Assembly (NCBI RefSeq): GCF_006438825.1 | Contig: NZ_RCZP01000003.1 | Coordinates: 124,001-188,000 of the forward strand | Direction: 5' to 3' | Length of the DNA stretch: 64,000 nucleotides | Origin: Muricoccus nepalensis | GTDB lineage: Bacteria > Pseudomonadota > Alphaproteobacteria > Acetobacterales > Acetobacteraceae | Part shown: one piece after another, positions 10,734 through 44,859 of the stretch | Position numbering within the stretch: the first letter of the stretch is position 1 | How the letters are laid out: each line of letters starts with the position of its first letter | The notes under the pieces: model-generated | Seen by the model: only the letters and a program-made list of their open reading frames with translations | Told to the model about the DNA's origin: nothing | Database searches by the model: none | Translations under genes and position numbers: made by a program

Positions 10734-12584
10734 TCATTGGCAGGCGAGGCATTCCTCGTAGTTGGTGCTCTCGGCGGGGGCGGCGGCAACGGGCAGCGGC
10801 AGCACGGCGTCCACCGCATAGCCGAGCTTCGGCTGCACCGCCACCTTCTCGCTGATCGTGTCCGCGCGCTGGATCGACAGGCTGCGGCAGTAGTAGAGCG
10901 TCTTAACGCCCTTCTTCCAGGCCTGGTAGTGGATCTGGTGAAGGTCCCGCTTGTGGATGTTGGCGGGCAGGAAGACGTTCAGCGACTGCGCCTGGCAGAT
11001 ATAGGGCGTGCGGTCGGCCGCGTGCTCGATCACCCAGCGCTGGTCGAGCTCGAAGGCCGTCTTGAAGACGTCCCTCTCCTGCTGCGTCAGGAAGTCGAGG
11101 TTCTGCACCGAGCCCTTGTTCACGGTGATCGAGGTCCAGGTCTCCTCGTCGTCGCGCCCGTGCTTCGCCAGGACCTTCTGGAGATAGGGGTTGCGGACGA
11201 TGTAGGAGCCCGAGAGCGTCTTGTGGTTGTAGACATTGGCCGCGATCGGCTCGATCCCGGGGCTCGCGCCGCCGCAGATGATGCTGATGCTCGCCGTCGG
11301 CGCGATCGCCATCTTGTTCGAGAAGCGCTCCATGATGCCGTACTCGGCGGCATCCGGGCAGGGACCGCGCTCGGCGGCGAGCTCGCGCGAGGCGGCGTCG
11401 GCCTGGGCGCGGATGTGCCGGAACATCTTCATGTTCCAGACCTTCGCGATCACGCTCTCGAAGGGCACGCTCTGCGCCTGTAGGAAGGAGTGGAAGCCCA
11501 TCACGCCGAGCCCGACCGAGCGCTCGCGCATGGCGCTGTACTTCGCCTTCGCCATGGTGTCGGGCGCGGTCTCGATGAAGGACTGCAGCACGTTGTCGAG
11601 GAAGCGCATCACGTCCGGGATGAAGCGCGGCTCGTCCTTCCACTCGAACCAGGTCTCGCAGTTGAGCGAGGAGAGGCAGCAGACCGCCGTGCGGTCGCGC
11701 CCGTGGTGGTCCCGCCCCGTCGGCAGCGTGATCTCGGAGCAGAGGTTGGAAGTCTTCACCTCAAGCCCGGCGAGCTTGTGGTGCTCGGGGCGCGCGCGGT
11801 TCACGTGGTCGGCGAAGATGAGGTAGGGCTCGCCCGTCTCGATCCGCGCGGTCAGGATGCGGATCCAGAGCGCGCGCGCCGACACCTTGCGCACGAGGGC
11901 GCCGTCCTTCGGGCTGGTGAAGGCCCACTCCTCGTCGGCCTCGACCGCGCGCATGAAGGCGTCGGAGACGAGGATGCCGTGGTGGAGGTTGAGCGCCTTC
12001 CGGTTCGGGTCGCCCCCTGTCGGGCGGCGGATCTCGACGAACTCCTCGACCTCGGGATGCGAGATCGGGAGATAAACGGCGGCCGAGCCGCGGCGGAGCG
12101 AGCCCTGGGAGATGGCGAGCGTCAGGCTGTCCATCACGCGGATGAAGGGCACCACGCCCGAGGTCTTGCCGTTCAGCCCGACCTTCTCGCCGATGGAGCG
12201 CAGGTTGCCCCAGTAGGAGCCGATGCCGCCGCCCTTGGAGGCGAGCGCCACGTTCTCGTTCCACAGCCCCACGATGGCGTCGAGACTGTCGTCGGCCTCG
12301 TTCAGGAAGCACGAGATCGGCAGACCGCGCTTCGTGCCGCCGTTCGACAGAACGGGCGTCGCCGGCATGAACCAGAGTCGCGAGATGTAGTCGTAGATGC
12401 GTTGCGCGTGCGCGGCGTCGTCGCCATAGGCGCTGGCCACGCGGGCAAAGAGGTCCTGGTAGGACTCGCCCGGCAACAGGTAGCGGTCGCTCAGCGTGGC
12501 CTTGCCGAACGCGGTGAGCAGGTCGTCGCGCGAGCGGTCGACCTGAACCTGGCCGTGGCCCTCGAGCTGGATGGCATCGAACAT
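10734..12584 (-). CDS. nrdA: Ribonucleoside-diphosphate reductase class Ia, alpha subunit (R1), without ATP-cone
   Basis: A 616-residue catalytic subunit that reduces NDPs to dNDPs. Active-site cysteines are present: C92 in GLPISCFLNE, the thiyl cysteine in TSNLCSEI, and the C-terminal shuttle pair C612/C615 in ECLACQ. The protein begins directly at the region that follows the ATP-cone in longer relatives (E. coli R1 is 761 residues), so the N-terminal allosteric activity domain is absent. The start MFDAIQLEGHG was chosen over an upstream ATG that adds non-conserved sequence. A possible NrdR box lies about 90 bases upstream. Confidence 0.96.
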   Translation of the reverse strand: MFDAIQLEGHGQVQVDRSRDDLLTAFGKATLSDRYLLPGESYQDLFARVASAYGDDAAHAQRIYDYISRLWFMPATPVLSNGGTKRGLPISCFLNEADDSLDAIVGLWNENVALASKGGGIGSYWGNLRSIGEKVGLNGKTSGVVPFIRVMDSLTLAISQGSLRRGSAAVYLPISHPEVEEFVEIRRPTGGDPNRKALNLHHGILVSDAFMRAVEADEEWAFTSPKDGALVRKVSARALWIRILTARIETGEPYLIFADHVNRARPEHHKLAGLEVKTSNLCSEITLPTGRDHHGRDRTAVCCLSSLNCETWFEWKDEPRFIPDVMRFLDNVLQSFIETAPDTMAKAKYSAMRERSVGLGVMGFHSFLQAQSVPFESVIAKVWNMKMFRHIRAQADAASRELAAERGPCPDAAEYGIMERFSNKMAIAPTASISIICGGASPGIEPIAANVYNHKTLSGSYIVRNPYLQKVLAKHGRDDEETWTSITVNKGSVQNLDFLTQQERDVFKTAFELDQRWVIEHAADRTPYICQAQSLNVFLPANIHKRDLHQIHYQAWKKGVKTLYYCRSLSIQRADTISEKVAVQPKLGYAVDAVLPLPVAAAPAESTNYEECLACQ

Positions 12585-29971: not shown

Positions 29972-29987
29972 ATTTACCGCAATTTAC
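29972..29987 (+). promoter_or_regulatory. TTTAC tandem-repeat operator, copy 1 (upstream of VOC-1)
   Basis: ATTTACCGCAATTTAC: two TTTAC half-sites exactly 10 bp apart. The motif ends 23 bases before TAAGCG, the position of a -10 element in the other two copies, and 58 bases before the VOC-1 start codon. Same sequence, orientation and spacing occur upstream of two other operons. Confidence 0.7.
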
Positions 29988-30045
29988 GCCGGCGGCCAGG
30001 GAGGTGTTGGTAAGCGATCGTGGCAAGGTCACTCAGGAGAGTTCT

Positions 30046-30543
30046 GTGGAGTACCACCCGCTTCCGGTCACGCATGTCGGCCTCACGGTCACGGACATCG
30101 AAGCAGCGACGGCATGGTATGCAAAGGTGCTATGCTGCCGGCACATCATCGGGCCGCTCCACATCACGGATGATGGGAGCCAGATGTGGAAGGTCTTCCG
30201 AGGCATCTTCGGGGAGCGCTTCCAGGAAGGCTATGTTTGCCACCTGGCGACCGCGAACGGTGTCGGGATCGAGTTGTTCCAGTTCGTCACGCCACGGTCC
30301 GAACCAGCGGAGAACAACTTCGCGTACTGGAAGACCGGCGTGTTTCACTTCTGCCTCGTTGACCCGGAGATCGAGGCCCTCGCCAAGCGGATCGCCGACG
30401 CGGGCGGGAAGCAGCGGTCTGACGTGTGGACGCTCTTCGAGGGCGAGGCGTTCAAGGCCGTCTACTGCGAGGATCCTTGGGGCAATCTGATCGAGGTCTA
30501 CAGCCATTCCACCGAGTTGATGTACGCGAACCGCGGCAAATAG
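30046..30543 (+). CDS. VOC-family protein 1 (glyoxalase/dioxygenase-like)
   Basis: A 165-residue vicinal-oxygen-chelate protein with one pair of beta-alpha-beta-beta-beta units. Putative metal ligands: His in VTHVGLTVTD, His in GVFHFCLVD and Glu in PWGNLIEVYSH. The start is the GTG with AGGAGA five bases upstream; a longer frame reaching back to 29860 crosses the operator and is rejected. Reaction unknown: the family includes glyoxalases, extradiol dioxygenases and resistance proteins. Its promoter carries the TTTAC tandem repeat shared with VOC-2 and pao. Composition is less GC-biased than the core genes. Confidence 0.88.
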   Translation: MEYHPLPVTHVGLTVTDIEAATAWYAKVLCCRHIIGPLHITDDGSQMWKVFRGIFGERFQEGYVCHLATANGVGIELFQFVTPRSEPAENNFAYWKTGVFHFCLVDPEIEALAKRIADAGGKQRSDVWTLFEGEAFKAVYCEDPWGNLIEVYSHSTELMYANRGK

Positions 30544-30723
30544 GGCGACGATTCAGCCTTCTCGGTCGCTGGACAACACGGGGCGGCGTTCTGCTCGACA
30601 ACGCTTCGGAAGAGCGGGCCTGTGCGTAGGGGGCGCTCCATTACTGACCGACGACAGGCCGTCAGGGCAGAAATGGAGCGATGGGCCGTTGCTCATCCCC
30701 CGCGATGCGGGCTCGGCTTGAGC

Positions 30724-31611
30724 TTACGCCGCCATCTCCTCAAGCTCAGCCATCAGTGTCTGGATAAAGGCCGTGGCGAGCTGCGGGAGCGCGCGGCCGT
30801 CCGGTGTCATCAACGTCACCGGCAGCATGATCGAAGGGGCAAACGGCCGCCAGCCCACCCCTGGCAGGCCGATATGCCGGATGAAGCCGTCGACGATCGC
30901 GACCCCCGCGCCGGCGAGAACATGGCACACCGCCGACATGCTCATCGTGATCTGGAGTGCAACGTCGCGCGAAAACCCCGCTGACGCGAAGGCCTGATCC
31001 AGAACCTGCCCGAAGTAGGTGTCCGATCCATAGGACACGAGAGGATGAGGCGCGACGTCGGCCGGCTGCACGACGCGGCGGCGCAGCACCGGGTGGCCTT
31101 CCGGCGCGATGAGGATCATTCGCGGGCCAGGCAGCGTTCGCACGGCCAGGCCCGGCTTTGGAACCGGCGACAAGCAGAGGCCCAGGTCGGCTTGGCCGGA
31201 AAGCACCGCATCCGCGGTCTCGCGGGCGGGGAGCAGGTGGGACGCCATGCGCACCATCGGATGCCGCCGCTCGAAGGCGGCGACTGCCCTGGGCACCAGC
31301 GTGATGGACAGCGACGAGGACGCAGCGACGCGCACCAGTCCAGCCCCGCCGGACCGGACCTCGCCCGTCAGGCGGGCGAAGGCGGCGACCTCGTTCACGA
31401 TGCGCTCGGCGTCCGGTAGCAGGCGTTGCGCCTCCGGCGTCGGCAACAGCCGCCCTTTGACCGTGTGGAACAACCGGAAGCCTGTCTGGCGTTCTGCCAG
31501 CCGCAGGGCCTTGCTCACGGCCGGTTGCGAAACCCCGAGGAACGCGGCGGCGCCGGTCACGCTCCGCATCCGCATCACGGCATGGAAGATTTCGATCTGA
31601 CGAGCGTTCAT
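30724..31611 (-). CDS. LysR-family transcriptional regulator
   Basis: A 295-residue LysR-type regulator with the helix-turn-helix in MNARQIEIFHAVMRMRSVTG and VSQPAVSKALRLAE, and a complete effector domain of normal length. ATG 31611 matches the usual family start; the alternative ATG at 31626 lies inside a palindrome that is better read as the operator. It faces a decayed hydantoinase gene, so its original target may be lost. Confidence 0.93.
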   Translation of the reverse strand: MNARQIEIFHAVMRMRSVTGAAAFLGVSQPAVSKALRLAERQTGFRLFHTVKGRLLPTPEAQRLLPDAERIVNEVAAFARLTGEVRSGGAGLVRVAASSSLSITLVPRAVAAFERRHPMVRMASHLLPARETADAVLSGQADLGLCLSPVPKPGLAVRTLPGPRMILIAPEGHPVLRRRVVQPADVAPHPLVSYGSDTYFGQVLDQAFASAGFSRDVALQITMSMSAVCHVLAGAGVAIVDGFIRHIGLPGVGWRPFAPSIMLPVTLMTPDGRALPQLATAFIQTLMAELEEMAA

Positions 31612-31623
31612 GGCGGAAGGGAG

Positions 31624-31640
31624 CATAACCGACGGTTATG
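31624..31640. promoter_or_regulatory. LysR-type operator upstream of the LysR gene
   Basis: CATAACCGACGGTTATG is a perfect palindrome (7-bp arms, 3-bp centre) with the T-N11-A spacing inside ATAACC-N3-GGTTAT. It sits 13 bases upstream of the lysR start and about 100 bases from the divergent hydantoinase remnant, so it fits an autoregulatory LysR site. Confidence 0.65.
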
Positions 31641-31737
31641 ACCCTTGCACGCGTCTGACGTGGCACGGTCCAGCGGGCGCCGGCTACTGCTCTCGTGCCG
31701 CGGCATTGACCGCGCGGCTTGAGACGGAAGTCACCCC

Positions 31738-31947
31738 ATGAGCTCTTGTGTAGGCGCCGACATCAACGAAGCCTTCATCGGCCTTTGCCTCTGGAACGAG
31801 AACACGGCGGAGCTGAGCACCCTGGCAACGCGAGGAGCGGAGTTGCTGCGCGGCCGCCGCAGCCTGAAGGAACGCCAAGGGGCAGAGCCGTCAAAGACCA
31901 CCCTCGCCGTCCAAGGCACGACGGCCGGCATCAACACCGCGATTCAG
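31738..31947 (+). pseudogene. Remnant of an N-methylhydantoinase A / oxoprolinase gene (hyuA N-terminus)
   Basis: The ~70 residues from MSSCVGADINEAFIGLCLWN to QGTTAGINTAIQ resemble the phosphate-binding start of hydantoinase A proteins (GVDIGGTFTDLVL ... VVHGTTVGTNALIE). Key glycines of the GGTFTD loop are replaced (NEAFIG), the middle is shortened, and similarity stops abruptly before a Cys/Arg-rich non-conserved tail that reads to 32154. A LysR gene divergent from hyuA is a common arrangement, so this looks like the decayed end of a deleted operon. Confidence 0.55.
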
Positions 31948-32167
31948 TGTCCAAAGTGCTACCGTTCCGATGTCTCGAGCGACTTGGAAGGGGGGCGCCG
32001 CGGGTGCGGGCCTCCGGTGCGCATGCGGACTGACGGGCAGGGTGGCGCCGCGCCCCACGCCGAGGCCGGAACGCCCGCGCCGCCGCGTCCCATGCCCACG
32101 CGGCGCGCCCAGACAGCCGCTCGGCCAGGCGCCGCGACCAGCGCCGCCGGCTAGGGCGGGGCATCTC

Positions 32168-35083
32168 ATGGACATCCCGCTGCGCGGATCCGACCAGGAG
32201 GCATCCTTCGCCTTCGGCCCTTTCCTGCTGCTGCCGCGTCGCCAGTTGCTGCTCGCCGAGGGCCACCCCGTCCGCCTTGGCGGGCGGGCCTTCGAGCTTC
32301 TGCGGGTGATGGTCGAGCGCCCGGGCGAGCTGGTGACCAGTGAGGAGCTGATCGCCGCGGTCTGGCCTCGGCTGCACGTTCACGACGGCAACCTGAAGGT
32401 GACCGTCGCGAGCCTGCGCCGTGCCCTCGGCGACTATCCCGAGGCGCCGCGCTTCGTCGCCACCGTGGCCCGGCGCGGCTACCGGTTCGTCGCGCCCGTC
32501 ACGGCCGGCGGCGCGCCCGCCCTTCCCCATCGCCTTGCCACGCCGCTTCCTGCCCTGAGCGCGCTGCCCCGCTCGCACCGCATCATCGGCCGCGCGCAGG
32601 AGGCCTCCGCCCTTCGGCGGCTGCTCGACGATGAAAGAGGGGTCACGATCGTCGGGCCAGGCGGCGTGGGGAAGACGGCGCTGGCCATCGAGGTGGCGCA
32701 CGCCATCGGCCCGTCCTACCCGGGGGGCGTGCACTTTGTCGATCTGTCGCCCGTCGACGATCCGGTCTCGCTTCCGGCGGTGCTGCTCCAGGCGCTGGGA
32801 TTGCCGGGCAACCCGGCCGACGCCCTCGCGAAGGTCCTCCAGCAGCTCCGCGCGGCGCCCACGCTGCTGCTGCTCGACAACTGCGAGCATCTGCAGCCCG
32901 CGGTGGCCATCTTCGCCGCCAAGTTCCTCGCCGGACGCGGCGCCTCGCGCCTGGTGGCCACCAGCCGGTTTCCGCTCGGCGCCCTCTCGGAGAGAGCGTT
33001 CACCGTCGAGCCGCTTCGCTACCCGGCCGGGGGCGAGGCGCCGGACTTGCGCCAAGCGCTGAGGTTCCCGGCCGTCGAGATGCTGGTCGGCCGCGCGGCG
33101 GACCTGACAGGCTATCGCTTCGTGGAGGAGGACTGCGCCGTCATCGCGCGGATCTGCCGGACGCTGGACGGGCTTCCGCTCGCGCTCGAGCTGGCCGCCG
33201 CGCAACTGGGCGTCCAGGGGCCGGACCGCCTGAGCGACACGCTCGACACCCAGCTCACCGTTCTCCGCCACTCGGACGGCGCGGTGCACTCCCGCCAGCG
33301 AACGCTGCAGGCCACCATGGACTGGAGCTACGGGCTGCTGTCCCGCGAGGAGGCGGCCCAGTTTCGGCTTGTCTCCGTCTTTCCCGACAGCTTCGACCAG
33401 GAGGACGCCGTGGCCGTGGCCGCCGCCACCGGCCTGGACGCGGCGGCCGTGGCCCGCTGCCTCGGCAGCCTCCTCGCCAAGTCGCTGCTGACGACGCTGA
33501 CGACGCTGACGGGGCCGGCGGGGCTCCGCTTCCGGCTGCTGCACACCACGCGGCTCTACGCGGGCGAGCGGCGCCGGCGGGACCCGCAGGATGCCCTGAT
33601 CCAGCGGTCCCACCTGCGCCGGGTGCTCGCCCTGTTCGAGCAGTCCGAGCGCGAATGGAGCTGGCGCGAGAGCGGTGAATGGGTGGCGCGTCACAGGGAC
33701 CGGCTGCCCGACCTTCGCGCCGCGCTGTCCTGGGCCCTGGACGCGGGGAAGGAGCCCGGCCTCGGGGTTCGTCTCGCGGCGGCGGCGCTCCCCCTCTGGT
33801 TCGAGCTCTCGGCCCTGGCGGAAGCCCGCCGCTGGACCGACGCGGCGCTCGGCCACGCGCGGGCCGCGCCCTGCGACGGGCTGGCCCTGGCCAAGCTCGC
33901 CGACTTTCGGGCCTGGGTCATGGTCTACGAGGCCAGGCCGATGCACGAGGTCGAGGACGCCTGGCTCGTCGCGCTTCAGGCCGCGGAGCGCGCGCGACAG
34001 GCCGGCCAGCATCTCCGGGCGCTCGCGGCCCTCGCGCTCTACCTGATCCAGACCGGGCGCATCCGCCAGGGACTCACCCGCCTGGAGGAGTTCAGGGCGC
34101 TGTCCGCCACCATGGGGAACCCCTCGGTCCTGCCGGAGGGCGAGCGCGCCCTGGCCCTGGCCAAGGCCTATCGTGGCGATCTGCTCGGGAGCCGGGAAAT
34201 CCTCGACCGGCTGGCGGCGGCGCACGCGCTGCCCGACCGGCGCTCGCGCATGGCGGGCTTTCAGGTTGATCGCTCCATCGGCATCGGCAGCTACCGGTCC
34301 CTGGTCCTGTGGCTGACAGGCAGCCCCGACCGGGCGGCATCCACCGCGCGAGCGGCCGTCGAGGCGGCCGGCACCCTGGGCCACCTCGTGTCGCAGTCCA
34401 ACGCGCTCGGCCTGGCCGCGCTGCCCGTGGCACTGTGCCGCGGGGATGCGGCGGCGCTCGGGCGCGACACGGCGAGGCTGCGCGAGAACCTCGAGGTAGA
34501 GCACCTCGCCATCTGGGTTCCGGTGGAGCGCTTCCACGCGGCGGCCCTGGCGGAGATGCGGGACGAAGCCGGGGCGATCGACGCTTTAAGGGCGGCGGTC
34601 CGGGACCTGCTGCAGTCCGGCTACGGCGCGCGCATCGGACTGTCGCTCAGCGTCCTGGCCGAGGCGCTCGCCCGCCGGCAGCGGTTGGACGAGGCCAAGG
34701 CCACCCTCGAGGAGGCCTTCCGGCAGCAGGACCGGCAGGACCAGTGGTGGTGCCGACCCGAACTGCGGCGGATCGAGGCCGCCATCCATCGGGGCCGCGG
34801 GCAGCACCGACGCGCCGACACCCTTCTCCGCGACGCGATCGAGGAGGCCCGATCCATGGGCGCCACTGCCTTCGAGCTGCGGGCCGCGAACGACCTGGCG
34901 GCCCACGCCATCGACCAAGGGCGGTCGGCCGCCGCGACGGCCCTGCTCCTTCCCGTCTACCGACGTTTTACCGAGGGCTTCACGACGCGCGACCTTGCCG
35001 AAGCCGGTCGCCTCCTGGCCCGGGCCGGGGACGCCCGCCCGGGCCCTCCGGTCCCGCGCTTCCCCGCCGGCCAGGAGGAATGA
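32168..35083 (+). CDS. OmpR-type winged-helix / ATPase (AAA-STAND) transcriptional regulator with helical repeats
   Basis: A 971-residue regulator. Residues ~12-115 form an OmpR/PhoB-like winged helix (VRLGGRAFELLRVMVERPGE, SLRRALGD, ATVARRGYRFVAPV). A P-loop ATPase of the AfsR/NACHT type follows (Walker A GPGGVGKTAL, Walker B-like TLLLLDNCEHL), then a long all-helical TPR-like C-terminal half (repeated AEALA/ARR helices). It belongs to the CadC/AfsR-like one-protein regulators that combine effector sensing, ATP-driven switching and DNA binding. No membrane segment. Gene position amid three operons carrying a tandem-repeat operator makes it the candidate activator (inference). Confidence 0.9.
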   Translation: MDIPLRGSDQEASFAFGPFLLLPRRQLLLAEGHPVRLGGRAFELLRVMVERPGELVTSEELIAAVWPRLHVHDGNLKVTVASLRRALGDYPEAPRFVATVARRGYRFVAPVTAGGAPALPHRLATPLPALSALPRSHRIIGRAQEASALRRLLDDERGVTIVGPGGVGKTALAIEVAHAIGPSYPGGVHFVDLSPVDDPVSLPAVLLQALGLPGNPADALAKVLQQLRAAPTLLLLDNCEHLQPAVAIFAAKFLAGRGASRLVATSRFPLGALSERAFTVEPLRYPAGGEAPDLRQALRFPAVEMLVGRAADLTGYRFVEEDCAVIARICRTLDGLPLALELAAAQLGVQGPDRLSDTLDTQLTVLRHSDGAVHSRQRTLQATMDWSYGLLSREEAAQFRLVSVFPDSFDQEDAVAVAAATGLDAAAVARCLGSLLAKSLLTTLTTLTGPAGLRFRLLHTTRLYAGERRRRDPQDALIQRSHLRRVLALFEQSEREWSWRESGEWVARHRDRLPDLRAALSWALDAGKEPGLGVRLAAAALPLWFELSALAEARRWTDAALGHARAAPCDGLALAKLADFRAWVMVYEARPMHEVEDAWLVALQAAERARQAGQHLRALAALALYLIQTGRIRQGLTRLEEFRALSATMGNPSVLPEGERALALAKAYRGDLLGSREILDRLAAAHALPDRRSRMAGFQVDRSIGIGSYRSLVLWLTGSPDRAASTARAAVEAAGTLGHLVSQSNALGLAALPVALCRGDAAALGRDTARLRENLEVEHLAIWVPVERFHAAALAEMRDEAGAIDALRAAVRDLLQSGYGARIGLSLSVLAEALARRQRLDEAKATLEEAFRQQDRQDQWWCRPELRRIEAAIHRGRGQHRRADTLLRDAIEEARSMGATAFELRAANDLAAHAIDQGRSAAATALLLPVYRRFTEGFTTRDLAEAGRLLARAGDARPGPPVPRFPAGQEE

Positions 35084-35112
35084 ACCACGGCGCCCGGATC
35101 GTGCCGGGCGCG

Positions 35113-35685
35113 TCAGCCTCCGCCGAGCGCACCCTCGGGCGGCGGCGGGTAGCGAACCACGTCCACCCGCATCTGCTGGTCACGCAGCCGCCACACGCGG
35201 GTCAGGCGGCGCGTGAGGGGCGAGATCGCCCAGATCAGCGCGACCGAGACGGCTCCGGAGGTCAGCGCGAGCCGGATTGCCCAGGGGAGCGTTGGGGCCA
35301 CCCGGTCGAGCAAGGCGCTCAGGGCCAGCAGCAGCGGGTAGGTGAGGACCCAGGTCGAGGCGAGCACCTTCCACTTCGGCCCGGAGCCATCGCTGGGCAC
35401 CGTCATCCGGACGATCGGCTCGCCGATGACGCAGAGCTCGCGCAGCGAATCGCGCTCCAGGGCCGCCACCATGCGCCGGTGGGCCGGCGAAGCCCTCCAG
35501 CGCCGCAGGTCCTCCTCGCCGGCGAACTGCGAGACCAGGAAGCTGAGCCCGTCGCCCTGCTGGATCAGCAGCGTTCCGACGTGGTGCGCTTCCTGGCCCG
35601 CCTCGAAGAAGGCGCGCTCGATGTCGCCGGCAATCGCGGCCTCCTGGCCACCCCGGGAGATGAGGGAGGTGACGGTCGTCAGCAC
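35113..35685 (-). CDS. Antibiotic-biosynthesis-monooxygenase-like protein with C-terminal membrane segments
   Basis: A 190-residue protein. The first ~95 residues look like an ABM ferredoxin-fold domain (FLVSQFAGEEDLRRWRASPAHR is the typical strand-helix), followed by two hydrophobic helices (WVLTYPLLLALSALLD and ALTSGAVSVALIWAI) and a basic tail. The start is GTG, 20 bases past the stop of VOC-2, so the two form an operon. ABM proteins oxidise quinone-like substrates or bind small ligands; the membrane-anchored form is a known but uncharacterised architecture. Confidence 0.8.
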   Translation of the reverse strand: MLTTVTSLISRGGQEAAIAGDIERAFFEAGQEAHHVGTLLIQQGDGLSFLVSQFAGEEDLRRWRASPAHRRMVAALERDSLRELCVIGEPIVRMTVPSDGSGPKWKVLASTWVLTYPLLLALSALLDRVAPTLPWAIRLALTSGAVSVALIWAISPLTRRLTRVWRLRDQQMRVDVVRYPPPPEGALGGG

Positions 35686-35704
35686 GCGGGAGACCTTCCC
35701 GGCA

Positions 35705-36493
35705 TCACGGCGCCATCTTCGCCAAGTGCCGCTCCTTGGCCTCGAGGAAGGTCCGCTTGACCGGGTCCAGCGCCTGGACGAACTCCAGCTGCTCGCCCTC
35801 CGGCCCCTTGCAGTAGATCAGCGACCACCCATCGGATTGGCCCTCGCGGATCTTGTTCGTGTTCGCGCTCACCGGGGCGCCGCGGCGCGCCTCCTCGGTG
35901 CGGGTCGTGATGACCCGGTTGGCCCGGACCTGCGTCATGCCCCGGTGCGCGCTCTCCGCCTCCAGGTCCGCGATGAAGCGGTCGAAGTCCACGTCGTCGC
36001 GAACATGAAAGCAAATGTGCATTGAGCGGGGGTAGGCCGGGCTCATCCGGTCGCGCGGCTCGGCGAAGCTACGGCCCTCGCCCTCGGGCTGGTCGGCGTT
36101 CCGGTACTGGAGGAGCTCGATGACGACGTTGTCGAACTGCACGAAGCGGACGTCGAGGCGCTGCGCCCCGCCGGCGAGGTCGGGCACGCCGATGGTCGCC
36201 GGCACGATGCCTTGCGCGGCGGCCCGGATCTCCTCGTCCGTCAGCAGCGTGTTGTGGATCGCCTCGCCCTGGAAGTCCCCGTCGCGCATCACCTCCGTGC
36301 CGCCGAGGACCTCCGTGTAGAACTCGAAGGCCCGGTTCATGTTCTGGACGGTGACGCCGAAGTGCTGCACGCCCTGCAAGCGGAAGCCCAGCGGCGCGCG
36401 GTCACGCGACGGCGCCGCGCCCGCCCCCTCCGCGCCGCTTGGACCGCGCGGGGTGATCGGGCGGGCGTGAGAGGGGATCGGCATGGACTTCAT
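35705..36493 (-). CDS. VOC-family protein 2 (glyoxalase/dioxygenase-like)
   Basis: A ~262-residue VOC protein with two modules: the first begins GVQHFGVTVQNMNRAFEFYTEVLGG, the second has MHICFHVRDDVDFDRFI and ends with EGEQLEFVQA. Candidate metal ligands are His in QHFGVTV, His in HICFHV and Glu in QLEFVQ. Starts at 36514, 36493 and 36484 are all possible; the open frame back to 36586 would cross the tandem-repeat operator and is rejected. The ~45 N-terminal residues are low-complexity. It is co-transcribed with the ABM-like gene. Confidence 0.87.
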   Translation of the reverse strand: MKSMPIPSHARPITPRGPSGAEGAGAAPSRDRAPLGFRLQGVQHFGVTVQNMNRAFEFYTEVLGGTEVMRDGDFQGEAIHNTLLTDEEIRAAAQGIVPATIGVPDLAGGAQRLDVRFVQFDNVVIELLQYRNADQPEGEGRSFAEPRDRMSPAYPRSMHICFHVRDDVDFDRFIADLEAESAHRGMTQVRANRVITTRTEEARRGAPVSANTNKIREGQSDGWSLIYCKGPEGEQLEFVQALDPVKRTFLEAKERHLAKMAP

Positions 36494-36561
36494 CCTGATC
36501 GGCTGGCGCCCCATCGGGGCGGCGGTGTGACGTGCATAGCCGTCCAACCGGATCGAGGGGC

Positions 36562-36577
36562 GTAAAATGGGGTAAAT
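36562..36577 (-). promoter_or_regulatory. TTTAC tandem-repeat operator, copy 2 (upstream of VOC-2/ABM operon)
   Basis: Gene-sense sequence ATTTACCCCATTTTAC (minus strand): TTTAC half-sites 10 bp apart. It is followed after exactly 23 bases by TATGCA, a plausible -10, and lies 68 bases before the VOC-2 start at 36493. Confidence 0.7.
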
Positions 36578-36646
36578 GCGCTTCATGGCGGCTCGCCCCG
36601 CGCGTTAGCCTTCCGGAGACCGCATCCGGGGCAGAACGAGAACAAG

Positions 36647-37264
36647 GTGAGACGCGGAACCGACAGCGGCTATCACCGCGCCGAGGCCTTCAGCGACGCT
36701 GTGATCGCGATCAGCGTCACGCTCATGGCCTACGAGCTCCTGGGAACGACGGGGGCAGAAACGAGTGATCCCCTGGGCGCGCTGAGGGCGGCCTGGCCCT
36801 CCTTCCTGGCCCTCGCAATGAGCTTCCTCGTGGTTGGCCAGATGTGGATTGTGCACCACAACCTTTGGCGCTTCGTGCGGGAGGTCGACCAGGGCATGCT
36901 CCTGCTCAACCTCGCCCTGCTGTTCTTCGTCGCCGTGCTACCCGTCGCGGCAAAGTTGCTGGCGGCCCATCTCAACGGCCCGCTGGCGCCGCTGCGCGTT
37001 GCCGCCGGGCTCTACGCCGCGGTCGCGCTCGGGCAGGCCCTGCTCTTCAACGCGGCGCTGCGCTGGGCCTGGTCGAAGCGCCTCTTCGACATGGGCCCCG
37101 AGCGCTACGCAGCCTTCCGCCGGCATTTTCTCATCGGGCCGGCCATCTACCTCGTCGCGTTCCTGCTGAACTTCGCCTCGCCCTATCTGAGCATCGCCTC
37201 CTATCTTGCGGTGCCCGTCGCCTACCTGGGCTTCGGCTTCGGCCGCGCGAAAGACGAGCCCTAG
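36647..37264 (+). CDS. TMEM175-family (DUF1211) integral membrane protein, putative potassium channel
   Basis: A 205-residue membrane protein with six hydrophobic segments. The first helix carries the family signature FSDAVIAISVTLMAYEL (FSDGVFAI-like), which lines the pore of bacterial TMEM175 K+ channels; the substitution of Gly by Ala and Phe by Ile is within variation. Starts at GTG. It is divergent from VOC-2 and shares the intergenic region holding operator copy 2. Convergent with the pao operon. Confidence 0.9.
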   Translation: MRRGTDSGYHRAEAFSDAVIAISVTLMAYELLGTTGAETSDPLGALRAAWPSFLALAMSFLVVGQMWIVHHNLWRFVREVDQGMLLLNLALLFFVAVLPVAAKLLAAHLNGPLAPLRVAAGLYAAVALGQALLFNAALRWAWSKRLFDMGPERYAAFRRHFLIGPAIYLVAFLLNFASPYLSIASYLAVPVAYLGFGFGRAKDEP

Positions 37265-37274
37265 GCGGATCCGC

Positions 37275-39500
37275 TCAGAGCAACGCGAGGGCCGGCAGCG
37301 CGTGCAGGTGCTTCTCCAGGGTGATGGGATAGTCGCGCACCCGCAGCCCCGTCGCGTTGTAGACCGCGTTGGCGATCGCCGGCGCCGCCCCGCAGAGGCC
37401 GAGCTCGCCGATGCCCTTGGCCTTCATCGGGGAGGCCAGCGCGTCCGGATGATCGAGAAGGACGACGTCCAGGTGCGGGATGTCGGCGTGGACGGGCACC
37501 TCGTAGCCGGCCATGTCGTGGTTCACAAAGAAGCCACGCCGGGGGTCAACCGCCAGCTCCTCGATCAGCGCCGCCCCGAGCCCCATGGTCATCCCGCCGA
37601 TCACCTGGCTACGGGCCGTGGCCGGGTTGAGGATGCGGCCGACGTCGCAGACGCAGAGCATGCGGCGGAGCCGGACCTCGCCGGTGAAGGCATCGACGCC
37701 CACCTCTGCGAACTGGGCGGCGAAGGTGGATTGCTGGTAGCGCTTCTCGAGGTCGCCGAACTCGATGCTGTCCTCGCCGGTGAGCCCGCCCCCGCGGGCC
37801 GCCTCCTGCAAGGGCACGACCTCGTTCCCCGACCGGACGGTGCCCCCGATGAACTCGCACCGGTCCCGCGGAAAGCCCAGGCGATCCGCGATCGCATCCC
37901 TCAGGGCAACGCAGGCGGCGAACACCCCGGAGGTCGCGTTGGCCGCGCCCCATTGCCCGCCTGAGCCCGCGGCGCGGGGGAAGTTGGAGTCGCCCAGCCG
38001 CACCTCGACCTCGGCCGCCGTGAGGCCCAGCATCTCCGCCGCGGTCTGCGCCACGATGGTGTAGGTGCCCGTGCCGATATCGGTCATGTCGGTCTCCACG
38101 ATCAGGCCGCCTGACGCCTCCAGGCGCACCCGCGCCCCCGACCTCATGGCGATCGCGTTGCGGATGCCGCTGGCAACGCCCATCCCGACCAGCCACCGTC
38201 CCTCGCGCCTCTCCCCGGGGCGGGATCTCCGGGCCGACCAGCCGAAGCGGGCGGCACCGGTCCGGAGACATTCGACGAGATGGCGCTCGGAGAAGGGCCG
38301 GCTCGGGTTGTGCGGATCCACACGCGTGTCGTTCAGGACGCGGAATTCGACCGGATCCATGCCGAGCTTCTCGGCCATCTCGTCCATGGCCACCTCCAGC
38401 GCCATCAGCCCGGGCGCCTCGCCCGGCGCACGCATGAAGTTGCTCTCTGGCAGATCCATGGCGGCAAGCGTCATGCCGATCTCACGATTTGGCGCGGCGT
38501 AGAGGATCTTGGTCTGCGATGTCGCCATCTCCGCGCCCCCGAGCGGCAGGTTGCCGCTCAGGCCGCGGTGGGAAATCCCGGTCAGGACCCCGTCGGCACG
38601 GGCCGCCAGGCGCACGCGCTGGATCGTCGCTGAGCGATGGGTGCCGTTGTTGAAGATCAGCGCGCGCTGAAGCGCGAGCTTCACGGGCCGGCCCGCCGCC
38701 TTCGCCGCAAGGGCGGCCAGCACGACGTCGCTGCGGATGAAGAGCTTGGCGCCGAAGCCGCCACCGATATAAGGCGATACCACGCGAACCTTGTCCTGGC
38801 CCATCGACAAGGCCCTGGGCAGGTCGCGGATCGCCCAGTTGACCATCTGGTTCGCGGTCCACACGGTCAGGCGGTCTCCCTCCCATGCGGCCACCGTCGC
38901 GTGGGGCTCCATCTGCGCGTGGCTCTCATGCGGCGTCGTGTAGGTGCTGTCGATAGTGACCGCCGCCTGCTGGAACGCGGCCTCGAAGTCACCGACACGG
39001 TCAACATCTGGCGCGTCGGGACCGCCGTTCTCCCTGTCCGGCGCGGGCTTCGCGTTCCCGGCCTCGGCCGCGAGTACGAAGCGCCCGTCCTCCCTCTCGT
39101 AATCAACCTTCAGCAGCCGGGACGCGGCGCGGGCCTGCTCGAAGGTCTCCGCCACGACGACGGCGATCGCCTGATGGTAGTGCTCGATCATGTCACCACC
39201 GAAGAGCATGGCGGCGGAGAGGTCCGCGCGCGAGAGGGGAGCGTGGTCCAGCGTGGTCACAACGGCCAGAACGCCCGGCGCCGCGCGGGTGGCCGCCGCG
39301 TCAATCGCGCGCACGCGGCCCTTCGCCACGCCCGCGCCGAGGACGAATCCATAGGCCGGGTTGGTGACCGCGTCGTTCCGTTCGAAGGCATAGCGCGCCG
39401 CGCCGCTGACCTTCAGGGGGCCGTCGATGCGAAGCACGGGACGGCCGACGACGGTCCCGTTGTCGATCGGGTTGCCGGCGGCGGGCTGATCAAACAGCAT
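37275..39500 (-). CDS. paoC: PaoC-like molybdenum aldehyde oxidoreductase large subunit
   Basis: A 741-residue Moco-binding subunit closely resembling E. coli PaoC/YagR (732 residues): start [76 protein letters not shown], and the catalytic-glutamate motif [10 protein letters not shown]. PaoC oxidises aromatic aldehydes to acids at a molybdenum-cytosine-dinucleotide site. Its start overlaps the end of the paoB-like gene by 11 bases. Third gene of the operon. Confidence 0.95.
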
Positions 39501-40455
39501 CGGTTGTCCCCTTCGCTTCGGCGAGGACGGAGGCGAGCGCTCGCGCGGCCAGCGGGATCTTGAACGCGTTCTGCTCGGTGGGCGTGGCACCGGCGAAGGC
39601 GATGGAGACCACCGTCTCCGCCCCTTCGGCAAGGGCGTTCTCCGCCTTCTCCACTCGCCACGGCTTCGGCGCGACACCGCCAAAGGCGATGCGGCCCGTG
39701 CCGTCCTCCTGGATCACCGCGGCGACGGAAACGAGCGCGAACGCATAGGAGGCGCGGTCGCGAACCTTGCGGTAGATCTGCGTGCCGCCGATCGGCGGCG
39801 GCAGGAGCACGGCGGTGATCAGCTCATCGGGCGCCAACGCGGTCTCGATCTCCGGGGTGTCACCGGGAAGGCGGTGGAAATCGGCCACCGGGAGCGTCCG
39901 CGTCCGGCCGGCCGCGTCGACCGTCTCGACGGATGCGTCCAGCAGGCGCAGCGCGACAACGAGATCGCCGGGGTAGGTCGCGATGCAGGATGCACTGGTT
40001 CCGATCACCGCCAGCCCGCGCGAGACACCGCTCAGCGCCGAGCAGCCCGACCCGGGCAGGCGCTTATTGCAGGCTTGGTCAGTATCGTAGAAGTACGGGC
40101 AGCGGTTACGTTGCAGGAGGTTGCCAGCGGTGCTCGCCTTGTTGCGCAACTGTCCCGTCGCGCCCGACACGATTGCCCGGCTGATCACGCCGTAACCCCG
40201 CTTGATCCTACCGTGCGCGGCAAGGTCGGTGTTGGTCACCAGCGCTCCGATGCGCAGACCGCCGTCGGCGGTCTCCTCAATGCGGGAGAGATCGAGGTCG
40301 CGTATGTCGACGAGGTGGGACGGAACCTCGATCTCCAGCTTCATCAAGTCGAGCAGATTGGTCCCGCCCGCGATAAGCTTGGCGCTGGGCACCTGCGCCA
40401 GCGCCGCCGTGGCCTCCGCCATCGTGCCGGCGCGCTGGTAGGTGAAGGCCTTCAT
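39490..40455 (-). CDS. paoB: PaoB-like FAD/[4Fe-4S] subunit of aldehyde oxidoreductase
   Basis: A 321-residue FAD-binding subunit. FAD motifs [14 protein letters not shown] and TAGNLLQR are present, and so is the extra cysteine-rich insertion CPYF...[12 protein letters not shown] that binds a [4Fe-4S] cluster in E. coli PaoB/YagS, distinguishing this family from ordinary XDH medium subunits. Start ATG overlaps the stop of paoA by 4 bases (ATGA), so translation is coupled. Confidence 0.94.
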
Positions 40456-41021
40456 CGCGCTTCTCCGACGAACTGGGTGATGGCGTCCTGGATGTTGGAG
40501 TAGGCGCCGCAACGACAGATATTGCCGCTCATTCGCTCGCGCATCTCGGCCGGTGTCGGGCTTACGGAGGTTTCGAGCTCCGCCGTCACATGGCTGGGCA
40601 CCCCACGGCGCAGCTCATCCAGGGCTCCCAGCGCCGAGCAGATCTGGCCAGGCGTGCAGTAGCCGCATTGAAAGCCGTCGTGCTCCAGGAAGCATTGCTG
40701 AAGAGGATGCAGATCGGCCGCGGTCCCAATGCCCTCGATTGTCGTCACCTCGTCGCCGACGTGCATGACGGCGAGGCTCAGGCAGGAGTTGATCCGGGTT
40801 CCATTCACAAGCACGGTGCAAGCACCGCACTGGCCCTGGTCGCAGCCCTTCTTCGTGCCCGTCAGGTCCAGGTGCTCCCGGAGGAAGTCCAGCAGCGTCG
40901 TCCGAAGATCGCCATCGAAGGCTCGTCCCTCCCCGTTCACCATGATCGCTCCCGCCTGTGCTCCGCTCTGGCATCGCGGCGAGGACGTCGGTTGGCCCGG
41001 CTTGACGGTCCGATCCTGCAC
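40452..41021 (-). CDS. paoA: PaoA-like [2Fe-2S] subunit of aldehyde oxidoreductase
   Basis: A 189-residue iron-sulfur subunit. The plant-type [2Fe-2S] site is in [16 protein letters not shown] and the second cluster in CGYCTPGQ and GNICRCGAY. It starts at GTG with GAGGAGGA upstream. Unlike E. coli PaoA (229 residues, Tat-exported), there is no twin-arginine leader, so the complex should be cytoplasmic. No paoD maturation chaperone gene is adjacent. First gene of the operon and downstream of operator copy 3. Confidence 0.94.
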
Positions 41022-41057
41022 GGGATGTCCTCCTCGACTGTTCTGCGTTTCACCCGA

Positions 41058-41102
41058 ATTGTAGCGTTGCGGGGATCATGGCCGAGGTAAAATGCGGTAA
41101 AT
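41058..41102 (-). promoter_or_regulatory. TTTAC tandem-repeat operator, copy 3, and -10 of the pao operon
   Basis: Gene-sense ATTTACCGCATTTTAC (41087-41102) followed after exactly 23 bases by TACAAT (41058-41063), a 5/6 match to the -10 consensus. The hexamer at the -35 position (CTCGGC) does not resemble TTGACA, so the promoter should need an activator bound at the repeat. Predicted transcription start is about 30 bases before the paoA GTG. Confidence 0.7.
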
Positions 41103-41314: not shown

Positions 41315-42229
41315 ATGGAGCGGGTCGGGTTTGTTGGTCTCGGACGGATGGGGCGGCCGATGGCGGCTAACCTACGCCGCAAGCAGTTCGCTCTTTCGGT
41401 CTTCGACACGGTCCCTTCGGCCACAGAAGCACTTGAGGAACTGGGGGCAAGCCGAGCCCGCTCACGAGCCGATCTGGCCCGGACTTCCTCCGTCGTGCTG
41501 ACGATGTTGCCGGGTCCTCGGGAAGTGCGCGAGGTCGTGCTCGGTCCAGACGGCCTGCTGACGCATCTCCATCCGGGATCGCTGGTTATCGATAGCTCCA
41601 CGGTCGACCCCGCGACAAGCGACGCGCTGGCATCAGCTTGCGCGGAACGAGGCGTTGGTTTCGTGGACGCGCCAGTCGGGCGTCTGGCAAGCCATGCGGA
41701 GCGCGGCGAGAGTCTCTTCATGGTGGGGGCAAGCGACGCTGATTTCGCCCGGGCTCACCCGCTCCTCGCGGCGATGGGAAGCACCATCCATCACTGTGGA
41801 CCGCCAGGCAGCGGCACCCGCATGAAGCTGGTGAACAATCATCTCGCCGTCCTGCTTTGCACGATCAATGCCGAGGCCCTCGCCTTGTCGACGCGCTTCG
41901 GGCTCGATCTGGAACGAACGCTTGAGGTGCTGCACGGGACCACCGCCACGAACGGCCAGCTGAAGGTAAACTGGCCTCAGAAGGTCCTTGCTGGTGACAC
42001 GAGTCGCGGCTTTGCGATCGACCTGGCTCACAAGGATCTCACTCTCATCGTCGACGCCGGCAACGCGGAGCGCGTGCCGCTGCCCATGGCAGCGGCGGGA
42101 CGGGAAACGCTCTCCTCCGCACGGGCGCGCGGCTTTGGGGGAAAGGATTTCTCGGCCTTGCTCGACGCGCAGTGCGACCTCTCCGCCTTGCCGCCGCCCA
42201 GATTGAAGGCTGGCACACCGCCCGGCTGA
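41315..42229 (+). CDS. 3-hydroxyisobutyrate-dehydrogenase-family reductase, YihU-like (sulfolactaldehyde reductase type)
   Basis: A 304-residue NAD(P)-dependent beta-hydroxyacid dehydrogenase. Rossmann motif GFVGLGRMGRPMA at the N-terminus, substrate motif DAPVGR (not DAPVSGG), catalytic lysine in TRMKLVNNHLA and a C-terminal block GTTATNG...KVLAGDTSRGFAIDLAHKDL that closely follows E. coli YihU, the NADH-dependent 3-sulfolactaldehyde reductase. Start ATG follows GGAGGGGG. It precedes sulfopyruvate-decarboxylase genes, supporting a role with small sulfonated aldehydes; succinic semialdehyde is another possible substrate. Confidence 0.88.
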   Translation: MERVGFVGLGRMGRPMAANLRRKQFALSVFDTVPSATEALEELGASRARSRADLARTSSVVLTMLPGPREVREVVLGPDGLLTHLHPGSLVIDSSTVDPATSDALASACAERGVGFVDAPVGRLASHAERGESLFMVGASDADFARAHPLLAAMGSTIHHCGPPGSGTRMKLVNNHLAVLLCTINAEALALSTRFGLDLERTLEVLHGTTATNGQLKVNWPQKVLAGDTSRGFAIDLAHKDLTLIVDAGNAERVPLPMAAAGRETLSSARARGFGGKDFSALLDAQCDLSALPPPRLKAGTPPG

Positions 42230-42337
42230 GGGTGGGATCCGACTTGGCGTCATCGGCTTGCCCACTGCTTGATGGCGGACGCCAAGCAGAGGCGACCCAA
42301 CCACCGCCCAGAAGATAAAGAAGGCCAGGCATTGACG

Positions 42338-42889
42338 ATGACCGCAGCCACTGAATCCGAAAAGCTGGAGAAGGCCCACCTATCCTGGCCAGGCGAGATC
42401 TACAACGTTCTTCGCAACCTGGAAGTGACCATTGCCGCCTATGTCCCCGACGGGGGCCATGCCGAGTTGATCCAGAGGTTGCACGACGATCCTGCGGTCA
42501 CGGCGGTACCGCTGACGACCGAAGAGGAGGGAGTTGCCCTGGTCAGCGGCGCCTGGATGGGCGGAAAGCGGGGCGTGCTGCTGATGCAATCCAGCGGCGT
42601 TGGCAACTGCGTAAACATGCTCTCGCTCGTGAAGATCTGCCGCTTCCCGCTGCTCACCCTCGTGACCATGCGCGGTGAATGGGGTGAGTTTAACCCGTGG
42701 CAGGTTCCCATGGGATCGGCGACGCAAGAGGCGCTTGAAATCATGGACGTCAAGGTCTTCCGGACATCGGTCCCATCCGACGTGGCACCCACGGTGGAGG
42801 CGGCAGGGCAGATGGCGTTCCTCGGTGGAACACCCGCAGCGGTCCTCCTGTCCCAAAGACTGATTGGCGCCAAGGTTTTCGCGAAATGA
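42338..42889 (+). CDS. comD: Sulfopyruvate decarboxylase alpha subunit-like (ComD)
   Basis: A 183-residue protein equal to the N-terminal pyrimidine-binding half of ThDP-dependent 2-oxoacid decarboxylases. The conserved glutamate that activates ThDP is in PLTTEEEGVALVSGAWMGG. Split alpha/beta subunits of this size are typical of sulfopyruvate decarboxylase ComDE; phosphonopyruvate decarboxylase is the close alternative. Start ATG 42338 is chosen because the ~20 residues before it in the frame are not conserved. It overlaps comE by 4 bases. Confidence 0.85.
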   Translation: MTAATESEKLEKAHLSWPGEIYNVLRNLEVTIAAYVPDGGHAELIQRLHDDPAVTAVPLTTEEEGVALVSGAWMGGKRGVLLMQSSGVGNCVNMLSLVKICRFPLLTLVTMRGEWGEFNPWQVPMGSATQEALEIMDVKVFRTSVPSDVAPTVEAAGQMAFLGGTPAAVLLSQRLIGAKVFAK

Positions 42890-43494
42890 CCTACTCGAAC
42901 ACGGCGCGGACTGCTCCGCTCGACCGCCGGGCGGCCGTGCTCGGTATCGTCGAGGGCCGCCGAGACCTTCTTGCGGTCGCAAGCCTTGGCTCACCCACCT
43001 ATGATCTGGCAGCGGCCGGCGACCACGAGCGGAATTTCTACCTTTGGGGAGCAATGGGTGGCGCCGCAACCTTCGGGCTTGGCTTGGCCCTCGCCCAGCC
43101 CGAGGTGCCGGTCCTCGTTCTCCTCGGCGATGGAGAGTGCCTGATGGGCTTGGGCGCCCTGGCGACCATCGCCGTCCAGCGCCCCTCCAACCTGTCGATT
43201 GTTGTCCTCGACAACGGCCTTTACGGCGAGACGGGTGCGCAGCGGAGCCACACGTCGGGTGGCTTGACCAAGCTGGACCAGGTTGCGCGGGCTTGCGGGA
43301 TTTCCGAAACGATGTGCGTGGAAACGGAGGCACAGGTCAGGGAACTGGCGGAGAGGGTCAACCACCGTGGCGCAGGACCGCTGGTGGCCGTCGTCCGGAT
43401 CAATGGTGAGGAGCAGCCCCGCTGCCTTCCCTCCCGTGACGGGGTGGCGTTGAAGACACGGATGCGCCACGCGCTCGGGCTGGAATCGATGTGA
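42886..43494 (+). CDS. comE: Sulfopyruvate decarboxylase beta subunit-like (ComE)
   Basis: A 202-residue protein equal to the C-terminal ThDP-binding half of the enzyme. The cofactor motif GDGECLMGLGALATIA with the later NGLYGETGAQ is the GDG-X(n)-N diphosphate/Mg2+ motif. Start ATG overlaps the comD stop (ATGA). Together with ComD it would convert sulfopyruvate to sulfoacetaldehyde and CO2. The exact acid (sulfopyruvate, phosphonopyruvate or another 3-substituted pyruvate) is inferred from subunit architecture and neighbours. Confidence 0.85.
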   Translation: MTYSNTARTAPLDRRAAVLGIVEGRRDLLAVASLGSPTYDLAAAGDHERNFYLWGAMGGAATFGLGLALAQPEVPVLVLLGDGECLMGLGALATIAVQRPSNLSIVVLDNGLYGETGAQRSHTSGGLTKLDQVARACGISETMCVETEAQVRELAERVNHRGAGPLVAVVRINGEEQPRCLPSRDGVALKTRMRHALGLESM

Positions 43495-43770
43495 GGATGC
43501 GTCCGCCAGGATCCTGACGGGCTGAGTTCGCGCTGGTATCTTAGGCACGCTCCGCTGGTGGATGCGAAATTCCCATCCACCGCGAATGGTTCCTGGCGAA
43601 TACAATCCTTTCGGTTCGGGCAGCGGCCGCTCGCCCGTAGCCCGGGTGCCGACGACGGCGATGCGTGCGCAGACGCGGCAGCGAAGAAGGACTGAACGGC
43701 GATTCGCTTGCGCGGGCAAGGTTTCCGTTTTCTACTCTAATCCAAGAAGAGTTCGAAGAAAGGAAGCGCT

Positions 43771-44859
43771 ATGGACCGCCGCATGCTGCTCGGGAGCTCG
43801 GCCGCTCTTCTACCTTCTGCACTTGCCGCGCCCGCCGTTGCTCAATCGCTCCCAGAAATCCGCTGGCGGCTGACGTCCTCTTTCCCAAAAAGTCTCGACC
43901 TCCTGTCCTCGGCGCCCGAGAGCGCTGCGCGGCGAATCGCGGCGCTAACGGACAACCGCTTCCAGATCCGCATCTTCGCCGCGGGCGAGATCGTGGGTGG
44001 GCTACAGGCGCTCGACGCCGTGCAGACGGGAACGGTGGAGGCTGCGTTCACGGCGCCCTACTACTATGTCGGTAAGGACCCGACCTTTGCCTTCTTCTCC
44101 GTGCTGCCTTTCGGCCTTACGCAGCGACAGATGACCGCCTGGCTCCGGCATGGCGGGGGTCTCGATCTGGCGAATGAGCTTTTCAGGGGATACAACGTCA
44201 TTGGTTTTCCGACCGGCGACACCGGCGCTCAGATGGGCGGTTGGTTCCGCAAGGAAATCCGCACCCCCGACGACTTCAAAGGCCTGAAGTTTCGGGTGGC
44301 TGGCCTGGCGGGCGAGGTTTTCGCGCGCATGGGGGCCGTGCCGATCCAGATCGCGGCCGGTGATATCTATCCATCCCTGGAGCGCGGCACGCTGGATGCG
44401 GTGGAATTCGTGGGCCCGCACGACGACGAGCGGCTCGGCTTCGCACGTGTCGCGCCTTACTACTACTATCCCGGCTTTTTTGAACCGAGCGCACGCCTGT
44501 TCACGATGGTGAACCTTCGTGCGTGGGAGGGCTTGCCGGAGCAGTACAAGCAAGCCTTCCAAGTCGCTTGCCTTGAACAAGAATCAGAATTGACCAGCCG
44601 GTATGACCATTCCAATCCACAGGCGCTCCGCCGCCTCGTGGCGGCAGGAACGCAGCTACGCGCCTATCCACGGCCCGTTCTTGAGGCCGCCTGGCGCTCG
44701 GCCAATGCTGTCTTCGAGGACGTTTCGCAGCGGAACGAAGGATTTCGAAAGGTTCTGGAATCCTATCGTCGGTACCGCGACGACGAGTTTACCTGGTTCC
44801 GAGTAGCCGAGAACTCTTACGACAACTTCGCCTTTACGGCGGCGCAGGTGGTGCGTTGA
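43771..44859 (+). CDS. TRAP transporter substrate-binding protein, TakP-like (DctP family)
   Basis: A 362-residue periplasmic binding protein with a signal peptide (RRMLLGSSAALLPSALAAPA, cleaved near VAQ). The sequence follows the 2-oxoacid-binding TakP type: FQIRIFAAGEIVGGLQALDAVQ, YYYVGKDPTFAF, GAQMGGWFRKEIR, GLKFRVAGLAGEV and YYYYPGF. TakP-type proteins bind pyruvate-like acids as dimers. No DctQ/DctM membrane genes follow, so it is an orphan here. A 276-base gap separates it from comE. Confidence 0.92.
   Translation: MDRRMLLGSSAALLPSALAAPAVAQSLPEIRWRLTSSFPKSLDLLSSAPESAARRIAALTDNRFQIRIFAAGEIVGGLQALDAVQTGTVEAAFTAPYYYVGKDPTFAFFSVLPFGLTQRQMTAWLRHGGGLDLANELFRGYNVIGFPTGDTGAQMGGWFRKEIRTPDDFKGLKFRVAGLAGEVFARMGAVPIQIAAGDIYPSLERGTLDAVEFVGPHDDERLGFARVAPYYYYPGFFEPSARLFTMVNLRAWEGLPEQYKQAFQVACLEQESELTSRYDHSNPQALRRLVAAGTQLRAYPRPVLEAAWRSANAVFEDVSQRNEGFRKVLESYRRYRDDEFTWFRVAENSYDNFAFTAAQVVR

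Follow-up and report, generated by a model that had tools for sequence, protein, structure and literature searches.

A 64,000-nucleotide stretch of the Muricoccus nepalensis genome (contig NZ_RCZP01000003.1, positions 124,001 to 188,000; hereafter, the window, whose coordinates are used throughout) carries three copies of a 16-bp direct repeat, each in front of a separate operon. They are the only three exact occurrences of the repeat pattern in this 6.53-Mb genome, and all of them lie within 11 kb. We propose, with a probability of roughly 0.75, that the repeat is the operator of a STAND-type regulator encoded between the copies (32168 to 35083), and that this protein is an activator, similar to AfsR of Streptomyces but without its BTA domain, that switches on the detoxification of aldehydes and other electrophiles.

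Operator copies and promoter layout

In the sense of the downstream gene, copy 1 (29972 to 29987, plus strand) reads ATTTACCGCAATTTAC and precedes the gene VOC-1, copy 2 (36562 to 36577, minus strand) reads ATTTACCCCATTTTAC and precedes VOC-2 and its partner gene, and copy 3 (41087 to 41102, minus strand) reads ATTTACCGCATTTTAC and precedes paoABC. All three have TTTAC half-sites 10 bp apart, and their sequences, positions, and strands are exactly those given in the original prediction, which was made from the DNA of the window. On the opposite strand they read GTAAATTGCGGTAAAT, GTAAAATGGGGTAAAT, and GTAAAATGCGGTAAAT, that is, GTAAA-N5-GTAAA. The predicted gap of 23 bases followed by a hexamer starting with TA is present at every copy, and the proposed -10 hexamers are TAAGCG (30011 to 30016, plus strand), TATGCA (36533 to 36538, minus strand), and TACAAT (41058 to 41063, minus strand). 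Distances to the start codon, predicted as 58 to 68 bases, are 58 (GTG 30046), 68 (ATG 36493), and 65 (GTG 41021). That all copies are intergenic, as had also been claimed, is correct with the later starts that we adopted for VOC-1 and VOC-2, but not for copies 1 and 2 if the longest open frames are used, as these (VOC-1 from TTG 29860 and VOC-2 from ATG 36586) would span them. A Shine-Dalgarno-like stretch was seen by eye before the adopted VOC-1 start and before that of paoA.

GTAAA occurs 13 times in the window (both strands together), and 6 of these occurrences are operator half-sites. A search of the window for the 16-mer with up to three mismatches returned only the three copies, compared with a mean of 0.03 in dinucleotide-preserving shuffles, none of which (0 of 100) contained three or more, which agrees with the earlier claim that chance recurrence is very unlikely. 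The 40-base flanks of the copies are 22 to 38% identical, nothing beyond chance, and therefore the three sites are not the product of a recent duplication. The notion that the repeats are a matter of chance, or of a copied promoter fragment, could appeal to there being just three copies and to the word being no commoner elsewhere than its reversed control; set against the shuffles, the unrelated flanks, and the recurrence of exact sites at regulator starts in relatives (see below), it is barely credible.

The genome scan proposed in the original prediction (16-mer, two mismatches allowed) made the three copies stand out, as it returned them and one two-mismatch match on another contig versus none for the reversed-pattern control, but it revealed a regulon that is local rather than genome-wide. 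With the spacer relaxed, GTAAA-N(1-14)-GTAAA gave 13 matches in the whole genome versus 11 for the reversed control, and its three N5 matches are the window sites. The word is not over-represented genome-wide; what is striking is its clustering in the window. Since the only three exact sites are all local, we regard the regulon as a local one. A genome-wide regulon was also considered and is unsupported by so few exact sites. Eleven one-mismatch sites were found elsewhere in this genome, seven outside genes and four inside according to a crude gene-calling script; a few of them could be weak further sites.

If the TA begins the -10 hexamer, the operator would extend from about -50 to -36, with its center at about -43, and would abut a -35 position that lacks a consensus. 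This arrangement makes an activator role the most likely. A regulator that uses the same sites for repression, relieved when an inducer appears, would fit the geometry too, as a protein abutting the -35 position could equally block polymerase and position alone does not discriminate between the two. The -35 hexamers are poor, however, and so are most of the -10 hexamers, which suggests that polymerase needs help, and AfsR, whose architecture is partly similar, is described as an activator in the available text of its report (PMC10936776). On balance, repression seems unlikely, and activation by the STAND-type regulator is the reading followed below.

The candidate regulator encoded between the operator copies

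The gene at 32168 to 35083 (plus strand), which lies inside the cluster and was not named in the original prediction, is the evident candidate for the cognate regulator. Its product, 971 amino acids long, begins with an OmpR-type winged helix (Pfam Trans_reg_C at residues 32 to 107, 2.6e-16) and continues with an AAA/NB-ARC-like (putatively STAND-type) core, in which AAA_22 matched at residues 156 to 246 above the Pfam cut-off and NB-ARC below it. In a relative's regulator (locus L113; our own L and G numbers designate loci and genomes), TPR_2 matched above the cut-off, and TPR_12 and nSTAND1 matched below. No receiver domain was found in the window regulator by Pfam. The solved chains closest to its N terminus are those of CadC (best), ToxR (next), and other OmpR-type proteins, and CadC was also the best NCBIfam match, below its cut-off. 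CadC and ToxR are one-component winged-helix regulators and membrane proteins, whereas in the window regulator an ATPase region follows the winged helix.

AfsR, a large SARP regulator, is inhibited by its NOD and TPR domains until ATP binds, according to the available text of PMC10936776, and it shares with the window system an N-terminal OmpR-type DNA-binding domain, a nucleotide-binding core (putatively STAND-type in the window regulator), a direct-repeat operator, and a weak promoter. The two differ in that AfsR has a BTA domain, whereas past the winged helix of the window regulator no BTA match was obtained with Pfam at E 0.001; the winged helix ends at residue 107 and the ATPase region starts soon after, at residues 139 to 156, so that scant room is left between 107 and 139. 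Moreover, the AfsR repeats are given in the same text as 11-bp units centered at -29.5, versus 10 bp and about -43 here if the TA marks the -10 hexamer, and the targets in the window are not antibiotic genes.

Another candidate reader is the LysR-type protein encoded within the same cluster (30724 to 31611, minus strand). The site is a direct repeat and not a dyad, however, and LysR proteins usually bind dyad sites. In addition, this protein had no tblastn match (E ≤ 1e-4) in the five loci that form a clade with the window regulator (see below); other LysR-like genes were seen by eye in two of them (L086 and L170). We consider it highly improbable that the LysR protein reads the sites, which leaves the STAND-type regulator as the favored reader.

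Just upstream of the regulator gene, a short open frame (31738 to 32154, plus strand) had no Pfam match at 0.001. Its start resembles the N terminus of hydantoinase-type proteins, and the frame may be a gene remnant.

Sites and regulators in related genomes

Homologues of the regulator were surveyed in the family at E ≤ 1e-60, in the order at E ≤ 1e-90, and in the class with a four-row profile at E ≤ 1e-120, and were found in at least 48 of 397, 31 of 395, and 11 of 385 genomes, respectively; these counts are lower bounds because only the two best candidates per genome were scored, the draws overlap, and M. nepalensis itself is counted in each. A loose first look at its own genome gave 26 paralogue candidates. 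Among 14 genomes of the same genus, 4 had a regulator match (E ≤ 1e-60) with 34 to 39% identity; those of two (L104 and L118) fall outside the clade of the window regulator, and the other two genomes are G010 and G012.

The neighborhoods of 62 homologues, mostly best-scoring ones, were collected as 54 loci (930,251 bases, with the window left out). We defined a regulator-start zone as 300 bp upstream to 40 bp downstream of the estimated start, which amounts to 2.2% of these bases, and all six exact GTAAA-N5-GTAAA sites in the 54 loci fall within it. They represent four independent loci (L112/L113, L088, L174, and L179), because L112 and L113 are near-copies and L179 has two overlapping sites. 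Ten other spacings, searched with up to one mismatch, placed 0 to 2 sites in this zone, and control words at N5 placed there 4 of 9 sites (TAAAG, which overlaps the same sites), 2 of 9 (AAATG), 1 of 14 (GAAAT), and none for seven others. In whole genomes, the exact pattern was found once each in G426, G459, and G461, always at the regulator, and was absent from G358, whose site has one mismatch. The variant GTWAA-N5-GTAAA gave 2, 4, 2, and 7 matches in G858, G837, G674, and G098, with 1, 1, 1, and 2 of them in the regulator locus, compared with 7, 10, 4, and 7 for the reversed controls. As site counts lie below or near those of reversed controls, it is location, not number, that speaks for function. 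Specificity of the site varies among genomes between strong and moderate. To look at conservation within the genus, the 16-mer was searched in 100 relatives with two mismatches allowed, and 59 had a match; among the matches listed, the only exact ones were those of the window, and the counts resembled the reversed control by eye.

In a quick tree of the 62 regulators (branch support by Shimodaira-Hasegawa-like approximate likelihood ratio test only, without bootstrap), the window regulator grouped with those of L169 and L170 (47 and 46% identity; support, 100) and then with those of L086, L112, and L113 (support, 99). The site is present, exactly or with one mismatch, at each of the six clade loci, and each of the six proteins carries NLKV in its recognition helix, unlike the 44 other homologues in the helix comparison. 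In L086, a one-mismatch site lies between the regulator gene and a paoABC set 75 to 82% identical to that of the window. In L112/L113, an exact site lies between the regulator gene and a divergent DJ-1/FAD-ferredoxin gene pair, and a one-mismatch site also lies by an alpha/beta hydrolase gene and, in L112, by an aldo/keto reductase gene. Several operons thus stand under one operator in L112/L113, as they do in the window. L169 has a one-mismatch site and a row of hydrolase, aldo/keto reductase, VOC2, ABM, and regulator genes; an AraC-type gene there is divergent, and a molybdenum hydroxylase gene is found farther along. L170 has a one-mismatch site with an alcohol dehydrogenase gene and a DJ-1 gene beside it.

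The placement of sites at regulator starts in relatives suggests self-regulation there, unlike in the window, where the regulator gene has no further match of its own (up to two mismatches, 24 to 48 kb) and is therefore probably not self-regulated through the GTAAA operator.

When periodicity was assessed upstream of the homologues, 7 of 46 regions scored at least 10 at a lag of 10 bp, whereas eight other lags gave 1 to 3 such regions each; at every lag, one of the regions counted is a run of N. This excess is suggestive only. Inspection by eye showed that other homologues, namely those in L096 (3087), L116 (6937), L091 (11426), and L119 (7612), are preceded by several repeats in 10-bp phase that use different words (GTGAG, GTTAG, and CTTAA). 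In L088, which also has a more distant paoABC, three GTAA(A/G) half-sites follow one another in 10-bp steps (11602 to 11626) just before the regulator gene.

Promoter spacing in relatives

The original prediction had also proposed a comparison with promoters of related genomes. For 11 promoters (the L088, L174, and L179 sites being excluded), the gene assigned was the one that lies downstream when the site is read as TTTAC-N5-TTTAC or a variant; orientation is therefore in part fixed by this choice. After removal of two near-duplicate L112 promoters, 9 promoters of 58 downstream positions each contained nine TA dinucleotides in all, five of them at offset 23 and one at offset 24, and only 1 of 20,000 shuffles was as high. 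Three of the nine are the window promoters in which the spacing was first noticed. Outside the window, the spacing is kept in three of six promoters (L113 DJ-1 at 24, L113 hydrolase at 23, and L170 alcohol dehydrogenase at 23). The comparison thus bore out the recurrence of the site near related genes, but the spacing was present in only half of the relatives' promoters.

Several observations weigh against the proposed pairing of operator and regulator. Three of the nine promoters (L086, L112 aldo/keto reductase, and the AraC side of L169) have no TA where it would be expected, and the window regulator gene lacks a site, as described above. With up to one mismatch, just 8 of 20 sites in the 54 loci lie in the regulator-start zone, and five whole genomes gave 14, 4, 7, 7, and 7 sites versus 23, 21, 15, 52, and 29 for the reversed controls. 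The L169 site is opposite in sense towards the row that ends with the regulator gene, the L170 site is situated past the 3' end of the regulator gene, and the L179 sites border on or overlap the estimated start codon. Finally, L088, L174, and L179 have exact sites although their regulators are outside the NLKV clade, whereas L171, which branches next, lacks a site with up to one mismatch even though its regulator has NLKV; recognition helix and half-site are therefore not matched one to one.

Comparison with the CpxR box

GTAAA-N5-6-GTAAA is known as the CpxR box of E. coli and Pseudomonas, and E. coli CpxR is described as having many sites and targets (available text of PMC9600279 and PMC5063474). 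Because the window word is this published box read on the other strand, its sequence is not new, and only its likely reader is. The undescribed regulon of the original prediction, which was to join two VOC proteins, an ABM-like protein, and a molybdenum aldehyde oxidoreductase, is supported by our computations as a set under a shared operator, with three exact local sites and recurrence by related genes in distant relatives, but not as one with a novel word.

Could a CpxR-like two-component response regulator read the sites? The three exact copies fit its motif, the direct repeat with half-sites about one helical turn apart and an OmpR-type winged-helix reader (here the proposed regulator) are common to both systems, and CpxR action is independent of box orientation as far as those same sources report it. 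Furthermore, a search of the M. nepalensis genome with E. coli CpxR gave 16 matches at E ≤ 1e-20, the best being 43% identical. Yet, compared with the many sites reported for E. coli, there are three exact ones here, all local; none shares a contig stretch with any of the 16 CpxR-like genes; exact sites travel with the STAND-type regulator across families; and the recognition helix of CpxR is unlike that of the window regulator. The window sites are also linked to a regulator without a Pfam receiver domain, and their targets resemble enzymes for aldehydes and electrophiles. We judge a CpxR-like reader to be distinctly improbable and retain the STAND-type regulator.

Proposed target genes and their surroundings

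VOC-1 (30046 to 30543, plus strand) encodes a glyoxalase-fold protein (Pfam Glyoxalase, 1.5e-12), as does VOC-2 (35705 to 36493, minus strand) according to Pfam, and a protein 71% identical to VOC-2 is encoded in L169 in the gene row of the related regulator. The partner of VOC-2 (35113 to 35685, minus strand) has hydrophobic stretches as judged by eye, and its only match among 249 family genomes is in M. nepalensis itself. The earlier label of an ABM-like membrane protein is a weak one, with a Pfam ABM match (E 0.027) that falls short of the cut-off, but the VOC-2 relative in L169 is indeed followed by a true ABM gene. The third operon consists of paoA for the 2Fe-2S subunit (40452 to 41021; NCBIfam PaoA below its cut-off, 286.9 versus 322 bits), paoB for the FAD subunit (39490 to 40455; domain and NCBIfam searches), and paoC for the molybdenum subunit of an aldehyde oxidoreductase (37275 to 39500; NCBIfam PaoC above cut-off), all on the minus strand. 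Judging from these gene families, the targets appear to share the handling of aldehydes or other electrophiles as their theme.

A TMEM175-type potassium channel gene (36647 to 37264, plus strand) is divergent from VOC-2, and copy 2 is therefore also upstream of this gene, in the opposite sense. Divergent from paoA, the region from 41315 to 44859 (plus strand) encodes a dehydrogenase whose closest match, to sulfolactaldehyde reductase, is below the NCBIfam cut-off, two split subunits of a thiamine pyrophosphate enzyme, and then a DctP transporter protein.

Proposed mechanism and implications

In the mechanism that we favor, two regulator subunits would sit side by side, head to tail, on half-sites one helical turn apart, and the bound regulator would recruit RNA polymerase to otherwise weak promoters. 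Its ATPase and C-terminal part, much as in AfsR, may keep it inactive as long as no inducer is bound. The targets (PaoABC and two glyoxalase-fold proteins in the window; DJ-1, aldo/keto reductase, alcohol dehydrogenase, ABM, and hydrolases in relatives) point to a reactive aldehyde or another electrophile, or a precursor of one, as the probable inducer.

In the searches made of the literature on such STAND regulators in Proteobacteria or on a GTAAA operator, nothing fitting was found, AfsR/SARP papers aside. A broader and more tentative idea, which we consider possible but would not favor over its opposite, is that alphaproteobacteria harbor a branch of STAND regulators in which a genome might have dozens of paralogues, every one reading its own 10-bp-phased direct repeat; several of these regulators would run small local sets of aldehyde and electrophile detoxification operons, and the GTAAA operator would then be the first word of such a code. 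In genomes of this kind, a perfect CpxR box need not mean CpxR. This regulator group is now paired with a concrete operator, a promoter geometry, and a target set, which makes its inducers and its mechanism directly testable.

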